Shown here piece after piece: positions 29,216 to 40,999 of a stretch of 45,161 bases of DNA (the stretch's first letter is position 1; each line of letters begins with the position of its first letter). The translations under genes and the position numbers were made by a program. Location: the NCBI GenBank assembly GCA_002841995.1, contig PHBS01000009.1, positions 1 through 45,161 of the forward strand. Reading direction: 5' to 3'. This stretch comes from Chloroflexi bacterium HGW-Chloroflexi-8. GTDB lineage: Bacteria > Chloroflexota > Anaerolineae > Anaerolineales > Anaerolineaceae. Below the pieces are notes generated by a model. The model made no database searches. It had not been told where the DNA came from and saw only the letters and a list, made by a program, of their open reading frames with translations.

Positions 29216-30313
29216 CTATATCTCAAACCTCATCAGGACAAAGTGTCCCATGCCAATCTTCGTTCCGGGCACAATCTCATAAGGCGTATCGGGGTCAATC
29301 TTGACTCCATTCAGGGTGACTCCATTGGTGCTGTGAATATCCACAATTGTATATTGCCCATTGGTCGGATTCAGATCGATTTGGGCATGCTGCCGTGAGA
29401 CATCACTTTCGGAAGAAAGAATCGGAGTCGAGCGTCCCAGAATGAATGGAAAACTGGTCAATTCAATAATCTGGCCGATAATTGGAATATTGGTACAGCG
29501 CTCGATGATTAATTTGGCAGTTCGCAGATCACCTACCCCTACCCGAGTAGCAGAACCATCCCCCTGAGAGACAGGTGTTGCTGGTTGTGAGACTGGTTGT
29601 GAAATTGGTTGTGAAACAGATGCTGGTGCTTGCCTTTGCACAGGTTGAGAAGGCGGTCTTTGCTGTTGAGATGATGCCCTACCAGAGGATCCGGGAATAG
29701 CTCGAGCCTCAAAAACCATACTTACTTTGTGTTGTCCAAGCATAATCCGGTCCCCGTTTCGGATTTCACGTTCATTATTAAATGGGACCTCTTTTCCATT
29801 GATAAATGTGGGATTGTTTTCAGAAAGGGCTTCAATATAATATTTTCCATTGGAATAATTGATTTGGGCATGTCTTCGAGAAATTGTCATACCGGTAGGA
29901 ATCAGCTGCATGTTAACTGCCAGCATAATATTATGATTGACTTCAGTACTGGGTCGCCCTATGACGGCTGGATGCCATTGAATATCAAAAACCTTGCCGG
30001 TTGTTTCTTCGCGAAGTGTGGCGTAATGTTCCGGATCCAACATTTGGCGTATGGTTTGTTGAGCATAACCCAGTGTAAATTCATCCTGAGGTTGGATATC
30101 TAGCTGTTCCATGGTTAATGCAGGATTCAAAGGGCGGTCCACACCTTTTAATAAAAGTGTATATTTCTCGGAAGCATTCACACCAATGTCATCGAATTCT
30201 TTAAGAATTTCTTCAATTAAATTAGTGACTGTGAGTGATTTCCGGATTTGTGCATGTTGCCCGGTATGTTCAAAAACATTAATTTTTACATCAATATAAT
30301 CGTCCATCATCAT
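29216..30313 (-). CDS. YukD/EsaB-like ubiquitin-fold protein fused to two FHA domains (365 aa)
   Basis: Residues about 5-88 form a beta-grasp (ubiquitin-like) domain of the YukD/EsaB kind, a small cytoplasmic component of Firmicutes type VII systems. Evidence is the strand pattern IDVKINVFEHTG, then LIEEILKEF, then YTLLLKG-x-x-R-x-L with L-x(5)-D-E-F-x-L. FHA1 (about 110-205) has IGRPS, SRRHAQI and the Asn pair. A Gln/Pro/Ser linker follows (210-250). FHA2 (262-365) has LGRST, SRQHAQI and STNGVTLNG, the complete phosphothreonine-binding set. The gene overlaps the ATPase stop by 4 nt (ATGA). Three Met codons are consecutive; the third has the better ribosome-binding spacing (GAGGG, 6 nt). The FHA modules that are fused to EssC in Firmicutes are here on a separate protein with the ubiquitin fold. 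It probably bridges the ATPase to phosphorylated or pseudokinase partners. Confidence 0.92.
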   Translation of the reverse strand: MMMDDYIDVKINVFEHTGQHAQIRKSLTVTNLIEEILKEFDDIGVNASEKYTLLLKGVDRPLNPALTMEQLDIQPQDEFTLGYAQQTIRQMLDPEHYATLREETTGKVFDIQWHPAVIGRPSTEVNHNIMLAVNMQLIPTGMTISRRHAQINYSNGKYYIEALSENNPTFINGKEVPFNNEREIRNGDRIMLGQHKVSMVFEARAIPGSSGRASSQQQRPPSQPVQRQAPASVSQPISQPVSQPATPVSQGDGSATRVGVGDLRTAKLIIERCTNIPIIGQIIELTSFPFILGRSTPILSSESDVSRQHAQIDLNPTNGQYTIVDIHSTNGVTLNGVKIDPDTPYEIVPGTKIGMGHFVLMRFEI

Positions 30314-33300
30314 CCCTCACTTGGTTTTTGGTCTCCGAGCAATCCTAGACTTTTCGCATTTTCCACCAGGTCTGCGGGTGAAAGCATCGCTAATAACGAT
30401 TCAGGCATTCCATAATCGATCAGCATTTTCTTAATGGCAGGCATATCGAAATTGGATTCCTTGAAAGACTTATCCGAACCGGAATTTGCAACTGTCGCAG
30501 AATCATCTTCTACTGCTTCAGGAGATTTTTCTTCCGGGACTCGAATCCACTTTGCTTTTGTCTCTTTGAATTTCCTGTTGATATTCTTAACCCATGTATC
30601 TAAAGATCCTTCAATATCTTCATCGTTGGCATAAGGTGTAGCAATTTGTAACATCGAAGTGATACCGGATCGCACAATAAAGGCACGTCCCATGGGTAGT
30701 TCAACATCTGCCAGACTACGCGGGAACTTGCCATTCAAACGATTGACCGCGTCTGCACTCTTGAGACCGATTCCAAAATTAGGTGCTGTCACAACTTTTC
30801 TCAGATCATCAGAAGAGCTCATAATACTGACGGAGCCGGCAACGATCACGTACACTCCCGCGGTCTGATATTTGCGGATTAATTGAGCAATTTCCTCAAA
30901 GAAGGACATCTTTTTACGACTTGATTCGTCTGAGAATGCATCATAATTGTCGATCACGAGCATAATTTTGCGTCGTTTTGGATGTGTCTCAAAGTCAGTA
31001 CACTCTACTTTCATATTTTCGAGCAATTCATCCAATTGATCGATTTCAGAGATGGTATCGACCACATGTGGAAGATCTGCCAGGGAATAGTCGTTTCCTT
31101 TCCAAAGTTTCCTGGAATAATCAACCAAAATCATCATTAGTTCATCCGGGCTGTAATTGGTAGCCAATGAAAGGATGATACTTCGCAAAGCGGTTGTTTT
31201 ACCTGAAAATGGCTGACCTATGACCGTTAAATGGGGACCCATTCTTTCGATATCAACGATTGCTGCTTGCAGGCTGCGATCGTCAATACCCAGGATCGAA
31301 TATGGGCGCTTGATTTTTGGAACTTCATATTCGTGCAGTAATCCTTCAAGAGAAACACGCATTGGCAGAGTTTCGATTGTAGAAGGCTTTTCCCCTTTCC
31401 AGCCATTATTCCAGATTTCTTGCATGCGTGTGCACATTCTGGCAATTTTGGTTAAATTATCGGGGTCATTTTCTTCCGGCGTGAAAGATAACGCAGTCTG
31501 AAATTCCAGAGGCATGTTACCCACACGGACGTAACCTCGCCCTGGTACACTGCTTAAATCCGCAGGGACACCCCGGCCGACCACATTGGAATATTCTGAG
31601 GAATCTGAAAGTTTTAAGGTATAACGTTCTGTGATCAGATTAAAGAGCTTGCCGGTGAGTGCATTGGTAACGTCTGCAGTGATTAGGAAATGTACACCAT
31701 AAGCTCGCGCTTCACGAATCAATGAAATGAGTGGCCCCATCAAACCTTCGTAGTATTCTTTAAATTCAGCGAAGTTGTCTATGACGACCAAAATAGCAGG
31801 TAAAGTCTTTTCTTTATGGGTATTATTGTAGGAATCAAGATTATTGACTTTCGCTTCACTGAAGAGCATTTGGCGCTGGTCAATAATATCGTTAATCTTC
31901 CTCAAAACGCGCATAACCCGTTCATCTTCCTCTGATGTGATCACGGCACCAACATGTGGCAAATCCTGGAAAATGGTCAATGCGCGTCCACCAAAATCGA
32001 GGATATAAATGTGCAGCTCATCCGGTGAATGTGTCAGAACAAGGCTCGTGATGACAGTTCGGACAAAAGTAGTCTTGCCACGTCCAGAAGCACCAAAAAT
32101 GGTAGCATGCCCATTGGCAAAATTGACCATTAATGGTTTCTGGCTGGCTTGATAGGGATTATCGACAATGCCAACCAACGGACGCATGGAAGTTTTACCC
32201 CATTCCAGATCTCCCCAATGAAAATCATCCTCCCAGAAGCTGCTTGCTTTTTCGTTGAGAGCCATGCCGGTCATTTTTTCGCTATCGGTCCCTCTCAGAA
32301 GCTCAATATCTTCATCGTTCATGTAAGCAGTATCGAGTGGGGTTGTAAGGGTCAGGAAATTACTGCCACTTTGAGAAGGCAGAAATTCTGGCCATGGACG
32401 CCATTGCGGTTTTGATTCTTTCAGAGCTGTATTCGCCAGCATATCTACTATGACATCATAAAGTTTAGGCGGTTCTGTTGCTTTTTGCCCCGAGCTTTTC
32501 TTGGCGCGATCCAGCCAAATGACATTTGGCGCTACATTTTCCTCCTGTGGTCCTTTATAATCACCACCGGTATAAGCCGTCTGGATCAATTCAATATTCT
32601 CATTTCCCACTTGCAAATAACCGCGTCCCGGAATACCGGGTGGAAGGAATGCTGCGTCAGCTCGGCGTAACAATTCTCGGCTATCGTCTGGCGTTTCGAC
32701 TCGCAGACAGATTCGGAATTTAATATTTGCACGCATCTGGTCAGTAACACCCACCGGACGCTGGGCTGCCAGAATTAACGTGACCCCTAACGCACGTCCC
32801 AAACGGGTGATGCTTTCCAATTGGGCTTTGTATTCTGCATTTCCGGAGATCATTTCCGCAAATTCATCAATGATAATAAAAAGATGAGGATAAGGTGGCC
32901 GGCCGGCTTCCAGGTTTAATCCTTTTCGGCGGTAATGGACGATATCTTTCGAATTGGTATAGGTATTCAATTTCTGCCTGCGATCCAGTTCTGCAATAAT
33001 GGAAGCGAAGACACGGGCAGTGGCAGATTGATCCAGGTTGGTGACAATATCAACCTTGTGTGGCAGCTTTTTGAAGGGTTCGAAGGCAGCACCACCTTTA
33101 TAGTCGATCAGGACGAAATTCAATACATCCGGGTTGAAGTTCAATGCCATCCCGATGATCAGCGTCATGAGCAGCTCGGACTTTCCGGATCCAGTGGAGC
33201 CAGCAATCAATCCATGTACGCCATCTGCCTTGGCAGAAAAGGTCAACACGCGCGGTTCATTTCCCGAGAGCAAGCCGACAGCAGTATAAAGCCAGTCCGC

Positions 33301-34839
33301 TGATGCCGGGTTCATGCTTCGTTTCCAGTTCTCTGACGCATATTCCTGCAATTGATCAATGGTGCTCAAATTGAGCATTTCCAGCAAAGTGACTGTGGCT
33401 GCCAGGCTGGAACCATATCCACGCCGGATATCCAAAGGTTCCAAGCGTTTAGAGAAATTCCTGGCCATTTCCTGAGTCGTAACCAGTTTTGTTTTTCCAA
33501 CAAAGCGAATTGTATTAAATCCGGTTTCTGCATAACGGAAAACAGCACTTTCTTGATCCAGTTGATCGTAGCTGACTTCAATAATGGCTTCACATCGACT
33601 GGGCACTTTCTTGCGTTCCGGCACCACAAAAATGATCCCGGCACCCAATTGCTGTCCATCCAATAAGATCGTGGAAATGGTGGCTTCACCTTCCAGATCA
33701 CGTAAACAAGACCATTCTGGTGCTGCAGTTTGCACATCCACAACCACCAGCATAAAAGGAAGCTTGACGTCCGCTCCACTTTCTTTATCTTGTAGACGCA
33801 TCCTTCTGCGTTCCAGGATGGTGCGTACGTTTTTCCAAAACAAGCGCATTCGGTCGGCTTCATTCTCGCCGGGTTTTTCGTCACTTTCAAATTGCAACGT
33901 TTCATTCACACCAGATTCTTTACAATGCGGTAATGCATATGCCCAACGCCAATGCTTACGCATTTCGCTTGTACCGGCAACATACAACATGGTGTCCTGT
34001 GGAGAATGGAAGGCTGCATAATCAACCAGCATGGTTCGCAGATAGGCATGCACTATTTCTTCGGATTCTCCGGTAATGCCAATCGAATGTCGGATTTCAG
34101 ATTGTTTTATTTCAACGGTTTTCTCATCCGACCCTTGCTGTTCCTGGGTTTTTGATTCCACTTTTTTCTGTTCAGACTCATCCACCTGGAAGAATAAGGG
34201 AATAGTAACCGGCACATCAAATAAAAGGCGGGAATTTTCTGCCAAACGGGCTGCTTCTCGCATCAGTGGGTTGGAAACCTGCTCATTTTCGCTAATTTTA
34301 TAAATCACTGTGGAAGGACGGGTGCTGATTCCCAGACGCAGATTTAAGAAGTCGTGATCCGTTGGACGTCGTTCCCATAATCTTGTTCCCGAACGAATAT
34401 CTTCTTCTTTTGCATTATCCGGCCGTTCAATATCATCCGCAATCGCCATTGTTTTTTCAGGATTTGGATAATTATAGAAATAATAAATTCGCTGTTGTTC
34501 ATGCTCGCTTTCCATTTGACGACGCATCTCACTAATCCGACGCTTATAGGTGTCTTTCATCTCTTCGCGTTGCTTCTTATCCTGGCGATTGGTGTATATT
34601 GCCAGCGCTACCGAAGCGACTACTGAAAGTACCATTGGAACCATCATGAGCAGGCTCTTGCTTTGTCCAAACATGGAGACCATGATGTATCCCAGGATCA
34701 TGATCATGGGTAAAAACGCCTGAGCCATAATCTCGCCCGCTTTTTGTTCTGTATCCGGTGGATTAGGAATGTTACGAACCCCGGAGGGTAATTCGGGTTC
34801 AATTCGGGGTGGTCGATCGATATAGGTTTTTTGTGCCAT
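30310..34839 (-). CDS. Type VII secretion FtsK/SpoIIIE-type ATPase, EccC/EssC-like (1509 aa)
   Basis: This is the motor of the type VII-like system. The N-terminus has RPPRIEPE as in EccC, then two TM segments (about 39-58 and 61-85), a cytoplasmic stalk region and three FtsK-like ATPase domains. P-loops are GSTGSGKS (about residue 545), GASGRGKT (about 918) and GQPFSGKT (about 1208). The Walker B of domain 1 is IIIDEFAEM with a catalytic Glu. Domains 2 (VVIDNFAEF) and 3 (LVIDNYDAF) have Asn instead, so only domain 1 is likely to hydrolyse ATP. This fits known EccC behaviour, in which domains 2 and 3 bind nucleotide or substrate. There is no N-terminal FHA pair, unlike EssC. The ribosome-binding site GGGGAG lies 7 nt before ATG. 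It is 15 nt after the pseudokinase stop and overlaps the FHA gene. Substrates are expected to be the WXG100 proteins upstream. Confidence 0.96.
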   Translation of the reverse strand: MAQKTYIDRPPRIEPELPSGVRNIPNPPDTEQKAGEIMAQAFLPMIMILGYIMVSMFGQSKSLLMMVPMVLSVVASVALAIYTNRQDKKQREEMKDTYKRRISEMRRQMESEHEQQRIYYFYNYPNPEKTMAIADDIERPDNAKEEDIRSGTRLWERRPTDHDFLNLRLGISTRPSTVIYKISENEQVSNPLMREAARLAENSRLLFDVPVTIPLFFQVDESEQKKVESKTQEQQGSDEKTVEIKQSEIRHSIGITGESEEIVHAYLRTMLVDYAAFHSPQDTMLYVAGTSEMRKHWRWAYALPHCKESGVNETLQFESDEKPGENEADRMRLFWKNVRTILERRRMRLQDKESGADVKLPFMLVVVDVQTAAPEWSCLRDLEGEATISTILLDGQQLGAGIIFVVPERKKVPSRCEAIIEVSYDQLDQESAVFRYAETGFNTIRFVGKTKLVTTQEMARNFSKRLEPLDIRRGYGSSLAATVTLLEMLNLSTIDQLQEYASENWKRSMNPASADWLYTAVGLLSGNEPRVLTFSAKADGVHGLIAGSTGSGKSELLMTLIIGMALNFNPDVLNFVLIDYKGGAAFEPFKKLPHKVDIVTNLDQSATARVFASIIAELDRRQKLNTYTNSKDIVHYRRKGLNLEAGRPPYPHLFIIIDEFAEMISGNAEYKAQLESITRLGRALGVTLILAAQRPVGVTDQMRANIKFRICLRVETPDDSRELLRRADAAFLPPGIPGRGYLQVGNENIELIQTAYTGGDYKGPQEENVAPNVIWLDRAKKSSGQKATEPPKLYDVIVDMLANTALKESKPQWRPWPEFLPSQSGSNFLTLTTPLDTAYMNDEDIELLRGTDSEKMTGMALNEKASSFWEDDFHWGDLEWGKTSMRPLVGIVDNPYQASQKPLMVNFANGHATIFGASGRGKTTFVRTVITSLVLTHSPDELHIYILDFGGRALTIFQDLPHVGAVITSEEDERVMRVLRKINDIIDQRQMLFSEAKVNNLDSYNNTHKEKTLPAILVVIDNFAEFKEYYEGLMGPLISLIREARAYGVHFLITADVTNALTGKLFNLITERYTLKLSDSSEYSNVVGRGVPADLSSVPGRGYVRVGNMPLEFQTALSFTPEENDPDNLTKIARMCTRMQEIWNNGWKGEKPSTIETLPMRVSLEGLLHEYEVPKIKRPYSILGIDDRSLQAAIVDIERMGPHLTVIGQPFSGKTTALRSIILSLATNYSPDELMMILVDYSRKLWKGNDYSLADLPHVVDTISEIDQLDELLENMKVECTDFETHPKRRKIMLVIDNYDAFSDESSRKKMSFFEEIAQLIRKYQTAGVYVIVAGSVSIMSSSDDLRKVVTAPNFGIGLKSADAVNRLNGKFPRSLADVELPMGRAFIVRSGITSMLQIATPYANDEDIEGSLDTWVKNINRKFKETKAKWIRVPEEKSPEAVEDDSATVANSGSDKSFKESNFDMPAIKKMLIDYGMPESLLAMLSPADLVENAKSLGLLGDQKPSEG

Positions 34840-34854: not shown

Positions 34855-35922
34855 CTAAGGAACCAAGGTTACGACAAACATGAGAATTAAAGAAATTGCC
34901 AACAAGGCACCAATAACAATGAAAGCCATTTTCCAATTCATTTTCCTGGGTTTCTTCTCTGCCGGTATGGGCGGGAAAAAGGGTTTTAACTCAGTCGCCA
35001 TAGCTAATACATCCGAATATCTGGATTGGGGCAGGCGTTGAATAGCTTTTTCTACAATCTCCGGGATTCCTTTTAAATCAATTCTGCCACTGGGTTTATG
35101 TTCTCCGCTAATAACGTTTCGATAGACTGCTTCATCCTTTTTGAGATGATATTCATAGACCGGCCGTCCAGCCAGCATTTCGTATAAAACCAGACCAATT
35201 CCGTACACATCCGCACTCACACCCACTGGTTTACCAGGTTCCAAAATTTCAGGTGCCGTATAAGCTGGCAGATTATAGCCATCAGTCCAGGTTGTATGAA
35301 TGTCCTGATTAAGATCCCCAACCCCCAAATCCAGCAGCAATGGTCTGGGAATTCCTTGTTTGTCAAATCGCAAAAAGATCACATCCGGGTTGAGACATAA
35401 ATGAATTTTCCCTGCTTTGTGAAGATAGTAAATAACATCAATGATGCTCATCGTTATCCAACCGCTGTGTTGATACCAGGGCTGTGGGTTTTTATATAAA
35501 TAATTTCGTAATATTTCACCTTCAACAAATTTAAAAACTGAATAATACTTGATTCGTCCTTCAATTACCGTCCATCCGTAAGGATGCTGTGTGACTGAGC
35601 TTTGTGGATGAGCCGGTAGCAGAACCGGTAATAATGGGTGTTGGCCACTTTTTGCTAATTTAAGAAAAGCGTGTGCTTCCTGGCGCAGCTTATCTTCACA
35701 TCCAAGGTTCGCAATTTTTAGAAGGACTAACTCTTCTTCCCGACGAGCCTGATAAACGATTGCAGAGCGTAAAATTACAATTGGCTGGATTATTTCAATC
35801 GGTCCGAACCATTCACCATTATTAAAAATTTCTGTGGCATTTTCGGCGGGACAATATTTTTCCTGGCACCACAAATTAAAGTCTTGCGAAATTACATTAC
35901 ATTTTAAACAAATCCGGTTCAT
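34855..35922 (-). CDS. Membrane-anchored pseudokinase, EssB-like component (355 aa)
   Basis: I start at ATG 35922, with GCGAGG 5 nt upstream; the in-frame TTG at 35979 has a ribosome-binding site only 1 nt away. The N-terminus holds Cys5-Cys8 and Cys19-Cys24, a likely zinc ribbon. A protein-kinase fold follows: beta3 Lys69 (LLKI), alphaC Glu82, DLG at 198-200, APE at 223-225, and SADVYGIGLVLYEML of helix F. The catalytic loop reads HLCLNPDV in place of HRDLKPEN, so the catalytic Asp, Lys and Asn are all lost, and there is no glycine-rich loop. A TM at 332-353 ends the protein, leaving almost nothing outside the cell. In Firmicutes type VII systems EssB/YukC is also a pseudokinase-TM protein, but with an extracellular domain. 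This is probably its counterpart, linking the ATPase with the FHA protein. Confidence 0.9.
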   Translation of the reverse strand: MNRICLKCNVISQDFNLWCQEKYCPAENATEIFNNGEWFGPIEIIQPIVILRSAIVYQARREEELVLLKIANLGCEDKLRQEAHAFLKLAKSGQHPLLPVLLPAHPQSSVTQHPYGWTVIEGRIKYYSVFKFVEGEILRNYLYKNPQPWYQHSGWITMSIIDVIYYLHKAGKIHLCLNPDVIFLRFDKQGIPRPLLLDLGVGDLNQDIHTTWTDGYNLPAYTAPEILEPGKPVGVSADVYGIGLVLYEMLAGRPVYEYHLKKDEAVYRNVISGEHKPSGRIDLKGIPEIVEKAIQRLPQSRYSDVLAMATELKPFFPPIPAEKKPRKMNWKMAFIVIGALLAISLILMFVVTLVP

Positions 35923-36039
35923 AAAGCCTCGCATCGAATCGTTTGGCTTTGAAAAACTAGCCGTTTGAGATATCAACAAACCTTTCCGAACTGTGCATTC
36001 GTTGGGTTGTTTGTTTATAAGAATTGGAAACGAAAAATC

Positions 36040-36084
36040 ACACTCAAACCTGTATTGATTATTTCATAATACAGGTTTGAGTGT
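36040..36084 (-). terminator. Strong hairpin terminator inside the type VII-like gene cluster
   Basis: The arms at 36040-36056 and 36068-36084 are perfect 17-bp complements (ACACTCAAACCTGTATT) with an 11-nt loop. On the minus strand the stem is followed by GATTTTT. It lies between the last WXG100 gene (ends 36130) and the pseudokinase gene. It would reduce readthrough, giving more WXG100 mRNA than ATPase mRNA. Confidence 0.85.
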
Positions 36085-36129: not shown

Positions 36130-36426
36130 TTAACGGAAACGACGAGATCCGGATTCATCACCGGTTTGATAATGATTAATTGCACCGGTCAAATCGCCTT
36201 TTAACTCATTCATCTTTTTGGCAAGGTTTTCAACCCGCGGTTTGATCATACTTAAATAGCGTTCCACCGCAAACCCACCTACCAGACCAACGAATGCAGT
36301 CGTTCTCAAGACCATGATGGCAACTTCCAATGCTTTTGCCACACCTTGTAATATCTCTCCAAAGTTTCCGAAAGACTCCGCCATTTTTTGGACTTGGGGA
36401 ATGTCCATATAAACTTCATCAGCCAT
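36130..36426 (-). CDS. WXG100-like small protein with LVG turn and YxxxD motif (98 aa)
   Basis: This is an all-helical, about 100-residue protein in the WXG100/Esx size class. The central turn reads FVGLVGGFAVERYL, so the Trp of W-x-G is replaced by Leu. The first helix has an unusually hydrophobic half (ALEVAIMVLRTTAFVGLVGGF). The C-terminus has Tyr-Gln-Thr-Gly-Asp, matching the YxxxD/E type VII export signal, and ends in a basic tail (SGSRRFR). There is no signal peptide. TAGGAG lies 8 nt before ATG. It is the last of the five WXG100-type genes before the terminator. It may be a secreted partner or a divergent structural member. Confidence 0.85.
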   Translation of the reverse strand: MADEVYMDIPQVQKMAESFGNFGEILQGVAKALEVAIMVLRTTAFVGLVGGFAVERYLSMIKPRVENLAKKMNELKGDLTGAINHYQTGDESGSRRFR

Positions 36427-36453
36427 TTTCGTTTCTCCTAGGTTATGGAAAGA

Positions 36454-36789
36454 TTAACTAAAGATCTTACCGAACACATCAAAAAGCTCATTGGCTTTGG
36501 ATTGTGCTTGTCGATCTGCCTGGTCCATGATATCCAGTGCTTTTTTGATTCCATTCCCAAATCCCATATTCATGCTGCCAATATTTACCAGGGAAGGGAT
36601 CACTTCCGATGTCATTTCCTGCACAAATCGGTTGGCTCCTTCACCTTTCCAAACGCCTCCTGTAACTTGCTGGACGATTCCGCGTAAGGGAGAGGTGACC
36701 GCATCTTGAATAATGTTGACTTGAGCGGTGATCATACTAATGACATGGTTGACGACACTTCGTACAATTCTTAGGATAAAACCTAACAT
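36454..36789 (-). CDS. WXG100-like protein (111 aa)
   Basis: A helix-turn-helix hairpin protein with TGGVWKGEGANRFVQEM, a clear W-x-G turn (WKG) followed by the amphipathic second helix with F-x-x-E-M, as in WXG100 proteins. The N-terminal helix is hydrophobic (MLGFILRIVRSVVNHVISMI), so it may associate with the membrane. No YxxxD/E is present at the C-terminus; it ends in FDVFGKIFS. AGGAGG lies 6 nt before ATG. It is 27 nt upstream of the 98-aa gene and 18 nt after the 97-aa gene. It is likely secreted as a heterodimer with a neighbour that carries the export motif (inference from Esx pairs). Confidence 0.87.
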   Translation of the reverse strand: MLGFILRIVRSVVNHVISMITAQVNIIQDAVTSPLRGIVQQVTGGVWKGEGANRFVQEMTSEVIPSLVNIGSMNMGFGNGIKKALDIMDQADRQAQSKANELFDVFGKIFS

Positions 36790-36807
36790 TTTTTACCTCC
36801 TCCTGCT

Positions 36808-37101
36808 CTAAAAGTGGCCAGCTGCGCCTTTATCCTGAGCTTGCATATCGGAAATTGCTGCAGTGATATCTTTGGCGATTTCTTCAAATTTTTGGCTCAG
36901 TTTATTGACAGCCGGGACGAAAGCGGATTGTAGGGCATTCGAAAATGCTTCACCTGCGTCACCCACCAAGGCACCATTTTGCATTTCTCCTGCAGCCTGT
37001 TGTGCAAGACGCACGGTTTCCAACAGACGTTGAGAGACTGCTTTACATTGCTGCGCCATTTCTTGCATGGCAGGGTAATTAAGTTTAATTACTTCAGACA
37101 T
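36808..37101 (-). CDS. WXG100-like protein with LVG turn (97 aa)
   Basis: A 97-residue, fully helical protein with NGALVGDAGEAFSNAL at the position of the W-x-G turn (Leu in place of Trp, G-D-A-G-x-A-F as in many WXG100 proteins). The second helix (AFVPAVNKLSQKFEEIAKDI) is typical for the family. It has no signal peptide and no YxxxD/E motif at the C-terminus, which ends DKGAAGHF. AAAAGGAG lies 8 nt before ATG. It sits in the middle of the five-gene WXG100 array. Confidence 0.88.
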   Translation of the reverse strand: MSEVIKLNYPAMQEMAQQCKAVSQRLLETVRLAQQAAGEMQNGALVGDAGEAFSNALQSAFVPAVNKLSQKFEEIAKDITAAISDMQAQDKGAAGHF

Positions 37102-37128
37102 AATTAGGCTCCTTTTAAATTACCTTGA

Positions 37129-37437
37129 TCATTCACCGAGCATTTTGAAGATTCCCTGCCCTTGATCTTCGGCATTATGGTAAATCTTCGCAATATTGTC
37201 GGCAGCACCTGCAGCGGTATGTAATGCCTGTACCAATCTGCCCATTGCCGGGAGTACGAGTTGCTCCATTTCTCCGAAGAACTGATCCGAGCCCCTTCCA
37301 ACCCAACCAGTTCCGTGCAAACCTTCCACCCGACCTTTGGTTTGAGTTAATAGTTGGTTTACGGCATCTGCTTCAGAACGGAAACGTTTGATGATGTTTT
37401 CCAATTGTTCGTAATTGACTTCTGATTTTTCAGCCAT
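37129..37437 (-). CDS. Canonical WXG100 protein with YxxxE export motif (102 aa)
   Basis: It has the classic arrangement: a first helix with NYEQLENIIKRF, the turn GTGWVGRGSDQFFGEM (WVG), and a second helix MEQLVLPAMGRLVQAL. The C-terminal Tyr-His-Asn-Ala-Glu matches the YxxxD/E secretion signal of type VII substrates. Its N-terminal half is closely similar to that of the larger Gly/Ser-tailed protein upstream (both begin MAEK...VNYEQL and share GSD-x-FF-x-EM), pointing to gene duplication. AAAGGA lies 7 nt before ATG. Predicted to be secreted or to act as a chaperone-like partner. Confidence 0.93.
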   Translation of the reverse strand: MAEKSEVNYEQLENIIKRFRSEADAVNQLLTQTKGRVEGLHGTGWVGRGSDQFFGEMEQLVLPAMGRLVQALHTAAGAADNIAKIYHNAEDQGQGIFKMLGE

Positions 37438-37439
37438 TG

Positions 37440-37529
37440 TTATTCCTTTCTAACCAATTTTGAAAAAAATATGGATATCTTCCGATGGATTGGAAACGCT
37501 GGAGATTTTGTGTCTTTGATATTTTTCAA
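37440..37529 (-). CDS. Possible 29-aa leader ORF with TTG start
   Basis: In the 156-nt gap between the two WXG100 genes, a strong AGAGGAGG ribosome-binding sequence (around 37542-37549, minus strand) has no ATG after it. A TTG 12 nt downstream opens a 29-codon frame (LKNIKDTK... ending LVRKE) that stops 2 nt before the 102-aa gene's ATG. It could be a small coupled peptide or a decayed gene start. Evidence is slight. Confidence 0.2.
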   Translation of the reverse strand: MKNIKDTKSPAFPIHRKISIFFSKLVRKE

Positions 37530-37593
37530 ACCTGATAATTACCTCCTCTAATCGCAAAACAGGATGAGAATAAATCAGCCATGAATCATCATA

Positions 37594-38655
37594 TTATTCA
37601 TCTTCATTTTTATCTTTGATAATTTTTGCAGCACCACCAGCTGCAGCACCTGCACCACCGACGACACCAGCAATCCCGGCTGCCGTCGAATTACCACCAA
37701 GTGTTTCACCCGAAACATCAGGAGTACCTGAAGTGCCACCAACAGGGCTTTGAGGACCAGAAGGCATTGAGCCTGATCCTCCGCCAGCACTCTGATAAAC
37801 GTGATCTGGCATTGCTGAGCCATCATTGCCTATTGCAGCACCTCCACCCCCGGCACCGGAAGAGCTGCCCGCAGCAACATTAGCTGCGTTTTTCAGTCCA
37901 GAACCCATTGAATCCAGGTTTCCTGAGGCTCCACCACTTCCACTTCCCCCACCTTCGGATCCTGAGCCGCTGCCGCCACTTCCCGCTCCTCCGGAATCTG
38001 ATCCGATACTTTCGCCGCCACTAGCTGCTCCTGTATCACCAGACCCCATTCCACTCGATTGCCCCCCAGAGGCTGGTGTGCCTTGTTCTGCTCCACTTGT
38101 TCCAGCAGATCCGCTCTCCCCAAATTGTCCGGCACCAAAGTCTGTTTGCCCAAGATTTGGTCCTCCGGAACCTTCAGTTGTTGGTGAATTGGTATCGCTT
38201 GTTCCACCTGCACCAGCAAATTGCCCAGCACCAAAGTCAGTTGAACCTAAATTGGGTTCGGAACCACTTGTGCCTGCGGCAGATCCTCCTAAAACACCTC
38301 CGAGATTACCAAATTGCCCGGCACCAAAATCAGTTGCACCCAAATTGACATTTTGGAAATCACTCTTAAAGATATTTTTGGATTCCTCTTCTGAGTTATT
38401 AAATATTTTGGTGATATCAATCAAAGTCTTTCCGGAAAACAACAATGCTTCGCTTAATCGCTGTACTGCGGGCAGAATTTCCATTTCCATTTCGTCAAAA
38501 AACGAGTCAGAGCCTGCCCCAATCCATTCGGACTGCATATGGTGCACTCTCTCCCGAAGTTTTCCTAGAATCTTTGCAATTTCTTCGCCTTCGTTATTAA
38601 ACTTTTTCACAATTGCTTGAAGTTGTTCATAATTGACGATGGTTTTTTCAGCCAT
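37594..38655 (-). CDS. WXG100 protein with long Gly/Ser-rich repeat tail (353 aa)
   Basis: ATG 38655 is chosen: AAGGATG lies 6 nt upstream and this start clears the upstream stop at 38669, whereas an earlier in-frame codon at 38706 would overlap it. Residues about 1-95 are a WXG100 domain (VNYEQLQAIVKKF, then SEWIGAGSDSFFDEM with the WIG turn, then MEILPAVQRL). A matching region reads FNNSEEES, close to but lacking the Tyr of YxxxE. Residues about 100-353 are low complexity. Three repeats of NLG-x-TDFGAGQF are followed by Gly/Ser-rich sequence and an Ala/Gly hydrophobic stretch (AAGIAGVVGGAGAAAGGAA) before a basic and acidic tail. WXG100 domains fused to long C-termini are typical of type VII effectors and surface proteins. 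No toxin domain is visible, so it may be a structural or extracellular polymer-like protein. Confidence 0.9.
   Translation of the reverse strand: MAEKTIVNYEQLQAIVKKFNNEGEEIAKILGKLRERVHHMQSEWIGAGSDSFFDEMEMEILPAVQRLSEALLFSGKTLIDITKIFNNSEEESKNIFKSDFQNVNLGATDFGAGQFGNLGGVLGGSAAGTSGSEPNLGSTDFGAGQFAGAGGTSDTNSPTTEGSGGPNLGQTDFGAGQFGESGSAGTSGAEQGTPASGGQSSGMGSGDTGAASGGESIGSDSGGAGSGGSGSGSEGGGSGSGGASGNLDSMGSGLKNAANVAAGSSSGAGGGGAAIGNDGSAMPDHVYQSAGGGSGSMPSGPQSPVGGTSGTPDVSGETLGGNSTAAGIAGVVGGAGAAAGGAAKIIKDKNEDE
38122..38348. repeat. Three imperfect 38-39 bp repeats inside the Gly/Ser-tailed WXG100 gene
   Basis: Copies at about 38311-38348, 38218-38255 and 38122-38160 encode the peptide NLG-x-TDFGAGQF. They are spaced about 94-96 nt apart, with Gly/Ser spacers between. 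DNA identity is high enough to suggest recent duplication or slippage. Confidence 0.8.
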
Positions 38656-38668
38656 TAGTTCATCCTTA

Positions 38669-40999
38669 TTAACGCGTTTCAAATGTGAATTCGATGATAT
38701 TTCCAACCCTGATCCGTGTTCCGGAGGTAATACTCACCGGCTGTCCAGGAGCAACTCTGCTACCATTCACCAGGCTGCCATTGCTGCTATTGAGATCTGT
38801 AAAGGCAAAACCACCCGAATAGGGATCAATCGTAATTTGAGCATGTTTCCGCGATACACTGGCATCACTCAATACCAAAGTTGTATCCTGTCTACCGATG
38901 GTAAACGGAAACTGATTAATCGATACCCGATTTCCTGTGCTGCCAATGGGTAAATCAAACACCAAAACCGGCATGATGGGTTTATTTGTGCCAACGACTG
39001 TGGCATTGTTGTTAATCCCGGGTATGCCAACGATCGTACTCTCTTGCATATTCATTGGCATAACTTCAGGTTGAGCTGGAGTCGGGACTGGCTGGGGTGT
39101 AGGACGCACGGGGGTTTGTGGTGGAACAACTCTTGGTTGTTGCTGAAACCCACCATTTCCAGCGTTTCGGTTCAGAATGGGTTCATCACTGGCCAATGGA
39201 TTCTGTCCGCTTTGTTTTTTGCTGCCTTTTATTTTTCTTCCCAGCCGACCTTGCATAACGGGAGTGCCGCTTAATGATTTTTCACGCATGCTATTGACCA
39301 TGAAGAATGCGACCACAACTAAAATGATACCAATAATAATAAATAGGTATAAGGGCGAAGCGATTAATGCCTTAATAATTTTTTGAATGACCGTTTGGCG
39401 GGTGGCTTTATAAACGATACCTTCGTATTGTTGCGTTGCATAAACCTGATTCTGGTTTCCCAGCGCACGAACAACAACTGTATAGGTCCCGTCAGCAATT
39501 TTATTGGCTTCCAGTGGTAATAGAATAGATCCGCTATTGGCGCCAAAACTTGCCTGACTGAAATTGGAATTTTGCACAACGGTCTTAGTACTTTCATCCA
39601 CCAACCAACCATCAAACCCATTCACCAGAGAGGAATTGGTCGTCTCGATATTGACTTGCAAATCATTGCCTTGTTGGACTACCGATTGAACCTTTACTTG
39701 CGGCAGAACGGCTGACGGATCGAATGTAAAAGTATGCACCATTTCGGTGATGGGTTTATTATCTTCGGATAGAATGGCAAATGGAGTATTATCTGCTTTA
39801 CTGACTGCAATGATCCGGATTTCATATTCTCGGCCTATCGTTAATTGGTCGGATGGGAAATTGAACGTATTATGTTCCGCAGGATCATTAAAAACGAATT
39901 CTGCTGTTTTTGATCCTCCTTTTTCATCCCATAAGGAGACTTTGACATATTGCACCAAATCAGGATAGGTCAGTGAAAGCTGTAAATCATAAGTTTGGTT
40001 TTGTGGCAGGAAAAACAAGCCATCCAATTGAGCACTGACCGGGCTGGAAGGACCGGGATAATCGGTATTTGAATTTATCACAAAAGCAGTATTAATCGTT
40101 TCATTTTCACTGACATTTAATGCCAGGACTGCGTTGTTTTCTCCATTACGGGGGTATAAATTGGATTCAACCATCCATTGGGCTTTCAATGCATTCATGA
40201 TCTCTGCAAAAGCCTTTTCCAGGTCACTTTGTTTACCAATGGCAGAGAAAGCGCCGGTACTGGCTGCCATACTCTGCAATTCATGCGTATTAATGTTGGC
40301 TTCTTTGGCCGATAGTCCAATGGTGTGGATGGGCACCTGATCTTTCATGGCTTTATCGACCAGTTCCTGATAACTATGCTTGCTGCAAACTTTGCCTTCA
40401 CGTGTTTCATCCTTGCCATCTGTGAAAAGAATGACTGCGCGTCTACCGGCAGGTGCTTTTTCCATGGCTTCCACGGCTGTATAAGCTGCATCGTACAGGC
40501 AGGTGCCACGTTGCGACACTTGCATTTGATCAATTGCAAAACTGAGTGCAGCGATATTTTCGGTGAAATCCTGCATGAGCTTGATTTCTTCATTAAACTG
40601 GACAATTGAAAAGAAAGAATTGTTTGGTGTGTTGCTGACAGCCAATTTTGCAGCATTCTTCAATATTTCTTCCGATCCAGCCATACTGCCACTGGTATCC
40701 AGGACCAAGGCGACGTAAATGGGTACATCTGGTTCTTTAAGTTCACCATTGGCAACCAGGTTGGTATTTAATAGCGTAATCTGTGCATTGGAAAGGGTCG
40801 CATCTGTGACCGCAGCCCCTGTGCTAGGATCGAACATATTGAAATAGACCTTCAGGATCATGTGATCTGGAGTCTCTACTGTGTTGATGGTGTTAATTCG
40901 TATGTCCCAGGTACTTTGAGCGTTGGTTGCAAGAAAAGGAAAAATGGGGATTAAGATCAGGAAAATTAAAAGGAAAATGACATAAAAGCAACGCTTCAC
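38669..40999 (-). CDS. VWA domain protein with TM and cytoplasmic FHA domain (776 aa)
   Basis: This is the first gene of the type VII-like cluster, starting at GTG 40999 with AAAGGAG 6 nt upstream. The signal peptide spans residues 1-28 (ending NAQ). An extracellular von Willebrand A domain follows with a complete MIDAS motif: DTSGSM at 101-106, a Thr in QRGTCLYDAA near 175 and Asp in LFTDGKDE near 200. Further beta-rich domains run to about 540. One TM covers about 548-567, then a basic and Pro-rich linker, then an FHA domain (about 690-776) with IGRQD, SRKHAQI and SSNGSLVNG. The protein thus has a metal-dependent adhesion face outside and a phosphothreonine-reading face inside. It could connect secretion to the wall or recruit the pseudokinase/FHA partners. 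It is not a known core component of described type VII systems. Confidence 0.93.
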   Translation of the reverse strand: MKRCFYVIFLLIFLILIPIFPFLATNAQSTWDIRINTINTVETPDHMILKVYFNMFDPSTGAAVTDATLSNAQITLLNTNLVANGELKEPDVPIYVALVLDTSGSMAGSEEILKNAAKLAVSNTPNNSFFSIVQFNEEIKLMQDFTENIAALSFAIDQMQVSQRGTCLYDAAYTAVEAMEKAPAGRRAVILFTDGKDETREGKVCSKHSYQELVDKAMKDQVPIHTIGLSAKEANINTHELQSMAASTGAFSAIGKQSDLEKAFAEIMNALKAQWMVESNLYPRNGENNAVLALNVSENETINTAFVINSNTDYPGPSSPVSAQLDGLFFLPQNQTYDLQLSLTYPDLVQYVKVSLWDEKGGSKTAEFVFNDPAEHNTFNFPSDQLTIGREYEIRIIAVSKADNTPFAILSEDNKPITEMVHTFTFDPSAVLPQVKVQSVVQQGNDLQVNIETTNSSLVNGFDGWLVDESTKTVVQNSNFSQASFGANSGSILLPLEANKIADGTYTVVVRALGNQNQVYATQQYEGIVYKATRQTVIQKIIKALIASPLYLFIIIGIILVVVAFFMVNSMREKSLSGTPVMQGRLGRKIKGSKKQSGQNPLASDEPILNRNAGNGGFQQQPRVVPPQTPVRPTPQPVPTPAQPEVMPMNMQESTIVGIPGINNNATVVGTNKPIMPVLVFDLPIGSTGNRVSINQFPFTIGRQDTTLVLSDASVSRKHAQITIDPYSGGFAFTDLNSSNGSLVNGSRVAPGQPVSITSGTRIRVGNIIEFTFETR

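Follow-up and report, generated by a model that had tools for sequence, protein, structure and literature searches.

A pseudokinase family of Chloroflexota type VII gene clusters with EssB-like topology and a putative docking role

The window, which is the whole 45,161 nt stretch of DNA analysed here, encodes a pseudokinase whose catalytic loop reads as dead in all homologues examined and which is found as a near-constant part of type VII systems with one EssC subtype. By its sequence, the surrounding cluster is a Chloroflexota type VII system with a vWA-FHA protein, WXG100 proteins, the pseudokinase, an EssC ATPase and a ubiquitin-like-FHA protein (Table 1). In particular, it contains both an EssC/EccC FtsK-type ATPase, which exceeds the cut-off of TIGR03925, and WXG100 proteins, where three of the five WXG100 or WXG100-like genes (36130-38706) pass the PF06013 cut-off; export of these proteins by the cluster is putative. 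The pseudokinase appears to be a new type VII hub, similar to EssB in its topology and probable role, but its membership of the EssB family lacks sequence support. The preferred reading, held with moderate confidence, is that it is a membrane-tethered dead scaffold that docks EssC and the FHA proteins and is most likely switched in trans by another, active kinase.

Docking between a pseudokinase and FHA domains is a key contact of the T7SSb, where the signalling chemistry has been lost on both sides, a loss that obscures whether docking arose from phospho-signalling. In the present clusters, the FHA sites are retained beside a kinase that is dead in all homologues examined, and the type VII systems of this phylum are little described. 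Three papers mention WXG100 proteins or type VII systems from Chloroflexi (PMC3935865, PMC3482391, PMC10765036), and a 2006 survey of ubiquitin-like proteins describes YukD operons in low-GC Gram-positives and actinobacteria (PMC1779556); neither the 2024 survey of T7SSc-j (PMC11217815) nor the 2025 review of bacterial pseudokinase families (PMC12599244) has the string 'Chloroflex' in its main text. A literature search, mostly of papers outside subscription, found no recognised description of such a Chloroflexota pseudokinase. The gene set would make it testable whether phosphorylation can switch type VII assembly, and it provides a pseudokinase family with retained ATP-site residues.

Table 1. 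Features of the type VII cluster, with positions in the window.
Feature	Position	Strand	Evidence or detail
Ubiquitin-like (YukD-like) domain (putative) and two FHA domains	29216..30313	-	FHA 4.7e-29
EssC/EccC-type FtsK ATPase, without FHA	30310..34839	-	TIGR03928, TIGR03925
Pseudokinase gene: four-Cys ribbon (putative), pseudokinase, one C-terminal membrane helix	34855..35922	-	355 aa
C-terminal membrane helix, model residues 330-353, without outer domain	34864..34935	-	hydropathy and model
Degenerate catalytic loop HLCLNPD	35383..35403	-	Asp to Cys, Lys to Asn; next Asn position is Val
N-terminal ribbon (putative): Cys5, Cys8, Cys19, Cys24	35851..35910	-	four Cys in 62/63 distinct homologues
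Terminator-like hairpin and U-run, between WXG100 block and pseudokinase gene	36040..36084	-	
WXG100-like small protein 1	36130..36426	-	sub-cut-off Pfam matches only; place conserved in relatives
WXG100-like small protein 2	36454..36789	-	TIGR03930 1.2e-4, below cut-off
WXG100 protein 3	36808..37101	-	PF06013 5e-8
WXG100 protein 4	37129..37437	-	PF06013 5.6e-12
WXG100 domain and long low-complexity Gly/Ser tail	37594..38706	-	PF06013 3.3e-8
vWA domain, membrane helix and FHA domain	38669..40999	-	VWA 1.1e-15, FHA 3.1e-16

Layout and catalytic loop of the pseudokinase

The pseudokinase gene begins with an ATG at 35922, with a GAGG four bases upstream; the frame is also open up to an alternative TTG start at 35979. 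Its end is separated by 15 bases from the start of the ATPase gene, whose own end is overlapped by 4 bases by the start of the ubiquitin-like-FHA gene. The hairpin on the other side of the pseudokinase gene has a folding energy of -25.4 kcal/mol (z -5.8), a value that none of 200 shuffles reaches, and is absent from the sites of a simple terminator scan. A promoter scan was uninformative (11 found versus 12.6 expected). With this hairpin lying between the WXG100 block and the pseudokinase gene, the pseudokinase, ATPase and ubiquitin-like-FHA genes may share one transcript.

The four N-terminal cysteines form a putative ribbon with putative zinc binding, and only one homologue among 63 (L088) lacks them, all four being absent. 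At the other end of the protein, a single hydrophobic helix has a 19-residue core that ends 4 residues before the stop codon. Across the family, 0 to 11 residues follow the helix core in 48 of 48 complete homologues by hydropathy, a count made on the first 51 homologues minus three truncated ones and before 12 more were added. The membrane orientation presumably leaves the kinase fold in the cytoplasm.

The Pkinase profile of Pfam matches the protein above its cut-off (2.2e-13), and the match spans only profile positions 71-207, as the N-lobe has diverged too far for the profile to recognise. On alignment, Lys69 (VLLK), Glu82 (LRQE), 198-DLG-200 and 223-APE-225 are present, the HRDxKxxN position reads 174-HLCLNPDV-181, and the position of the glycine loop reads VILRSAIVY. 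The functional roles of these motifs in protein kinases are well established. The initial annotation, made from the sequence alone, had described this same pattern of retained and missing motifs, together with the four cysteines and a single membrane helix directly after the kinase domain with no outer domain, and each of these features is borne out here.

Further, the pattern extends well beyond one genome. Homologues were collected from 41 related genomes, 396 genomes of the class, 400 of the phylum and one scan of a contig collection, using a threshold of more than 150 bits (more than 200 for the phylum search) and counting identical copies once, which gave 63 distinct sequences, including the window's own and three truncated ones. 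The residues expected of an active Ser/Thr kinase, namely the HRD Asp, the catalytic Lys and the metal-binding Asn, occur in 0, 1 and 0 of the 63; the Asp position holds Cys (25), Gly (20), Ser (7), Ala (6) or Asn (5), and nine different residues occupy the place of the Lys. At the same time, the His of HRD is kept in 62 of 63, Lys69 in all 63, the alpha-C Glu in 61 with Asp in the other two, and the DFG Asp in 62 of 62. Moreover, Arg52 (57), Tyr57 (all), Gln147 (58), Trp149 (59) and Trp155 (57) are near-invariant among 60 homologues, and may form a family-specific binding surface. A chance origin of the motif pattern is very unlikely because it is conserved in 63 distinct homologues.

The phylum search found no intermediates with an intact loop within the family; the tier of matches under the family (at most 118 bits) consists of 14 listed kinases, all with an intact HRD and all without the ribbon. 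The ratio dN/dS is 0.05-0.07 in the four of 15 pairs with unsaturated dS, which compare relatives with one another and do not include the window's gene; dS is saturated in the other 11 pairs. This indicates purifying selection on the pseudokinase among the few relatives open to such a measurement. The initial annotation had named homologues with an intact HRD/DFG set as the observation that would turn the case into decay in a single genome. Such homologues were sought, and with the catalytic Asp in none of the 63 and purifying selection among relatives, single-genome decay is rejected; nothing was found in its support, and its probability is negligible.

The conserved ATP-site residues bear on two other explanations. 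In the first, the protein would be a nucleotide-sensing pseudokinase in which Lys69, Glu82 and the DLG Asp bind ATP but no phosphate is transferred, and nucleotide binding would set the conformation of the scaffold. Its support lies in the near-complete conservation of these three positions while the catalytic loop varies, and in a difference from the known hubs: EssB is described as having lost all three motifs, VAIK, HRD and DFG (PMC12599244), and YukC as showing no ATP binding in vitro (PMC9600267). On the other hand, the glycine loop is replaced by another conserved sequence, which includes Arg52, the metal-binding Asn is gone, and the Lys-Glu pair and DLG may persist for the fold alone, leaving nucleotide sensing a doubtful explanation. 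In the second, the kinase fold would support a non-canonical enzyme, with AMP transfer as one example. SelO is a kinase-fold protein that carries out AMP transfer. A further precedent on the kinase fold is SidJ (PMC12599244), and the ATP-site residues are kept, but within the family's catalytic loop no polar residue is conserved as a replacement, as the varied residues at the Asp and Lys positions demonstrate, and a non-canonical enzyme is highly improbable.

Relation to EssB and other kinase-like components

The initial annotation had called the protein EssB-like, and the name appears valid for its place, topology and probable role, but not for its family. Like EssB/YukC of the T7SSb of Bacillota, the protein has a pseudokinase domain followed by one membrane helix and a probable role as a hub; it is likewise encoded beside EssC, in a WXG100 cluster with FHA domains and, as a putative component here, a ubiquitin-like protein. 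Unlike EssB/YukC, it has no outer domain, carries an extra four-Cys ribbon and does not match PF10140, and its full-size kinase fold keeps the Lys, Glu, DLG and APE motifs and has lost only the catalytic loop.

These similarities in domain order and gene neighbourhood would also fit a genuine orthologue of EssB from which the outer domain has been lost; however, profile and structure comparisons point the other way. PF10140 (EssB/YukC) has no match in the pseudokinase genome at E 1, and none in a Pfam scan at E 0.1. It passes its cut-off in 0 of 41 genomes, as compared to 1 of 14 control genomes; weak matches occur in 10 of the 41, the best (3.8e-4) being to a frame with seven stops, and none is listed at the place of the pseudokinase family. 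An hhalign comparison with a real EssB gives a probability of 0.4%, where the use of one EssB sequence and no positive control leaves the comparison weak in power.

Structure prediction gives a full-size kinase fold, with an AlphaFold pLDDT of 76.9 from 10 sequences, rising to 89.5 (pTM 0.84) from 44 sequences, where the first 30 residues reach only 53-63. The top solved match of the model is PknB (2fum_A; Z 26.8, rmsd 2.7, 251 aligned, 22% identity), which ties with other PknB entries, and Foldseek matches 6i2p_A with an E of 4.9e-15; the closest solved structures among the matches listed are PknB and other protein kinases. EssB is not among the best 50 matches of each structure search, a listing limited to Foldseek's top chains and compatible with a structural likeness to EssB. 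Overall, these results make an EssB orthologue without its outer domain improbable.

The nearest described topology is that of TshM of the T7SSh of Bacillota, which is weakly kinase-like with a single C-terminal helix and no outer domain (PMC11217815), a likeness by description rather than by sequence comparison. The T7SSh also resembles the present system in having an ATPase without FHA domains; in contrast, TshM is described as not confidently predicted, and the T7SSh has an EspG-like protein and adjoining Tad pilus genes (PMC11217815). The kinases TscD and TsdD of the T7SSc and T7SSd are, like the pseudokinase, membrane components of a type VII system with a kinase domain, and the T7SSc shares the presence of a vWA component; however, TscD is said to keep its active site, and in both TscD and TsdD the C-terminal region is helical and assigned to the envelope (PMC11217815).

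Outside type VII systems, MviN of M. tuberculosis combines a kinase-dead domain with an FHA partner, FhaA, and is phosphorylated in trans by PknB (PMC12599244). In contrast to the pseudokinase, MviN regulates peptidoglycan synthesis rather than secretion and has lost its ATP-site motifs (VALT, Y--) (PMC12599244). The GLW pseudokinases, which are mainly proteobacterial, carry GLW at the HRD position and lack the beta3 Lys (PMC12599244); in contrast, the present family keeps the HRD His and the Lys with the frequencies given above (62/63 and 63/63).

FHA domains, candidate kinases and docking

As the initial annotation had noted, three FHA domains are encoded alongside the pseudokinase, two of them in the ubiquitin-like-FHA protein and one in the vWA-FHA protein, whose topology was read by eye from the sequence. 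The assignment of the ubiquitin-like domain is weakly supported: its profile matches a redesigned ubiquitin with an E of 0.0028, and hhalign comparisons with two annotated YukD proteins give an E of 2e-4 (46% probability) and of 0.003 (11%). FHA domains are absent from the window's EssC among 25 of its 26 Pfam families, and a simple motif search finds none across 40 distinct EssC frames.

The residues through which FHA domains bind phosphothreonine are well established. In the ubiquitin-like-FHA family, FHA1 keeps Arg in 31 of 31, Ser in 31 of 31, His in 28 of 31 and Asn in 30 of 30 sequences, and FHA2, present in 14 of the homologues, keeps all four binding residues in 14 of 14; in the vWA-FHA family, the counts are Arg 25/26, Ser 25/25, His 25/25 and Asn 24/26. 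These counts cover homologues above 40 bits (ubiquitin-like-FHA) or above 100 bits (vWA-FHA), with gaps and more divergent sequences set aside. The arrangement differs from that of the T7SSb, where the FHA domains are part of EssC and are described as having lost their phosphothreonine residues (PMC9600267, PMC11217815), and where docking between FHA domains and the EssB pseudokinase is described as probably needing no phosphorylation (PMC9600267).

Seven further Pkinase matches occur in the genome, all of which keep the catalytic-loop Asp, Lys and Asn and the DFG motif, with Phe replacing the HRD His in one of them; the 45-kb contig has no Pkinase match besides the pseudokinase. More broadly, at least one Pkinase match at E 1e-15 is present in each of 40 pseudokinase genomes, a count that omits the 11 genomes of the phylum search and in which the window's pseudokinase (2e-13) falls outside the threshold and those of the other genomes may be included. 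Of 52 distinct loci, 15 have at least one kinase gene with an intact H/x-D-x-K-x-x-N loop in the stretch around the cluster (18 frames). Kinases occur near the cluster in 10 of the 40 loci with genome-wide kinase counts, versus 2.7 expected (simulated P 2e-4), in a test that uses two different thresholds, includes genomes with counts of at least 48 kinases, takes two loci each from two genomes, and could also respond if kinases clustered for other reasons.

These data shape the preferred reading, a dead scaffold gated in trans. The kinase fold would be held in the cytoplasm by its single C-terminal helix, where its surface would hold together the EssC ATPase, the ubiquitin-like-FHA protein and the membrane vWA-FHA protein, which is the job of EssB in the T7SSb. 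A separate active Ser/Thr kinase would then phosphorylate a component in trans and thereby gate assembly, on the model of the switch formed by MviN, PknB and FhaA (PMC12599244). The pseudokinase is probably a docking hub, as judged by analogy, and we infer from the retained FHA sites and the available kinases that a phospho-switch in trans is the most likely form of control. The linker before the helix contains no strongly conserved Thr, so the pseudokinase is no obvious phospho-acceptor and the phosphorylated partner may be another protein.

The same scaffold could instead work by phosphorylation-independent docking, where FHA domains bind the folded pseudokinase and the phosphothreonine residues serve another ligand. 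There is direct precedent in B. subtilis and S. aureus, where the FHA domains of EssC are described as binding partners of the EssB pseudokinase, alongside other subunits (PMC9600267, PMC9436818), and both the contig without another Pkinase match and the linker without a strongly conserved Thr are in keeping with it. However, the FHA residues lost in the EssC of the T7SSb (PMC9600267, PMC11217815) are kept here in two different proteins, and kinases are over-represented near the cluster in relatives; docking of this type is possible, and is entertained tentatively. The initial annotation had posed these same alternatives, that the FHA ligand is made elsewhere or that FHA binding is phospho-independent: the first gains from the retained FHA residues, the seven kinases with intact loops and the excess of kinases near the cluster, and the second keeps the standing just given. 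A subtype intermediate between phospho-dependent and phospho-independent docking is also conceivable but rather unlikely; in it, the pseudokinase would retain a nucleotide pocket and be unable to phosphorylate, the FHA proteins would still read phosphothreonine, and assembly would be gated both by the ATP state and by Thr phosphorylation through a kinase in trans.

Returning to the gated scaffold, the genome search for active kinases that the initial annotation had proposed identifies, within the seven, two that are similar to cluster-adjacent kinases of relatives. At locus L050, a kinase gene lies some 50-70 bases after the ubiquitin-like-FHA gene, and its product is 58% identical over 536 columns to the genome's kinase L003; at locus L046, the kinase is encoded beside the vWA-FHA protein and is 54% identical over 594 to the genome's kinase L001. 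Kinases L003 and L001 are candidate writers, no more.

Association with an EssC subtype

The window's EssC has a length of 1,509 aa and scores 370 bits against TIGR03925 (cut-off 347), 745 bits against TIGR03928, which is below the cut-off of 778, and somewhat below the cut-off of TIGR03924. Among the 396 genomes of the class, the pseudokinase is found in 31 and the EssC subtype (at least 260 bits, with a gap down to 192) in 31, both counts appearing to come from the same genome draw. Both are present in 30 genomes, the pseudokinase alone in one (G387, 67% complete) and EssC alone in one (G389). Similarly, among the 41 relatives, both are present in 10, EssC only in one (G034) and neither in 30. 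The two genomes with EssC only are both listed as 93% complete and have no member of the pseudokinase family anywhere; the frame adjoining EssC is CorA-like in G034, and a beta-eliminating lyase precedes EssC in G389.

The position of the gene is similarly regular. Across 52 distinct loci, a set that omits eight duplicates, the window itself, the G006 locus (L042) and the phylum loci, EssC lies within the fetched stretch in 43 and outside it in nine. The pseudokinase gene is at most 600 bases from EssC in 39 of these 43 and sits between the WXG100 block and EssC in 34, while its strand relative to EssC is the same in 22 and opposite in 21 (for example, L056, L094 and L099). Because the place is fixed even though the strand flips, a functional tie to EssC is suggested.

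Beyond these genomes, 24 contig-collection records contain a family member, of which 23 are taken from their titles to be Chloroflexota and one is titled Bacteroidetes bacterium. The latter record (L053) has the same cluster, with a pseudokinase of 67% identity, and could be a mis-binned contig or a transfer.

Among the lower-scoring EssC types of Chloroflexota, HRD-intact kinases are present in three of eight stretches examined (L199, L200 and L205). They were considered as intact members of the pseudokinase family and rejected, as they are not family members; their systems are possibly a phospho-regulated sister subtype.

Several loci encode longer EssC-type ATPases of about 2,845-3,019 aa with 6-7 Walker A motifs, which suggest serial repeats of FtsK-type domains; one is at L099:10696-19506, and others are in L059, L100, L101, L104-L106, L108, L113, L114, L117, L118, L120 and L121. 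The systems surveyed in PMC11217815 are described with four NTPase domains. A plasmid of Agathobacter rectalis (L142:6962-11390) carries, one after another, a YukD gene, a gene for a stand-alone FHA-domain protein and the gene for EssC, which recalls the split between FHA domains and EssC seen here.

Within the window, the WXG100 protein with the Gly/Ser-rich tail is a possible substrate. Further, the reverse strand of 3316-25411 encodes large surface-type proteins: one of 1922 aa with RCC1/Ig repeats, one that combines a sortase domain and an Ig domain, one that is Vgb-lyase-like, and a LamG protein of 4131 aa.
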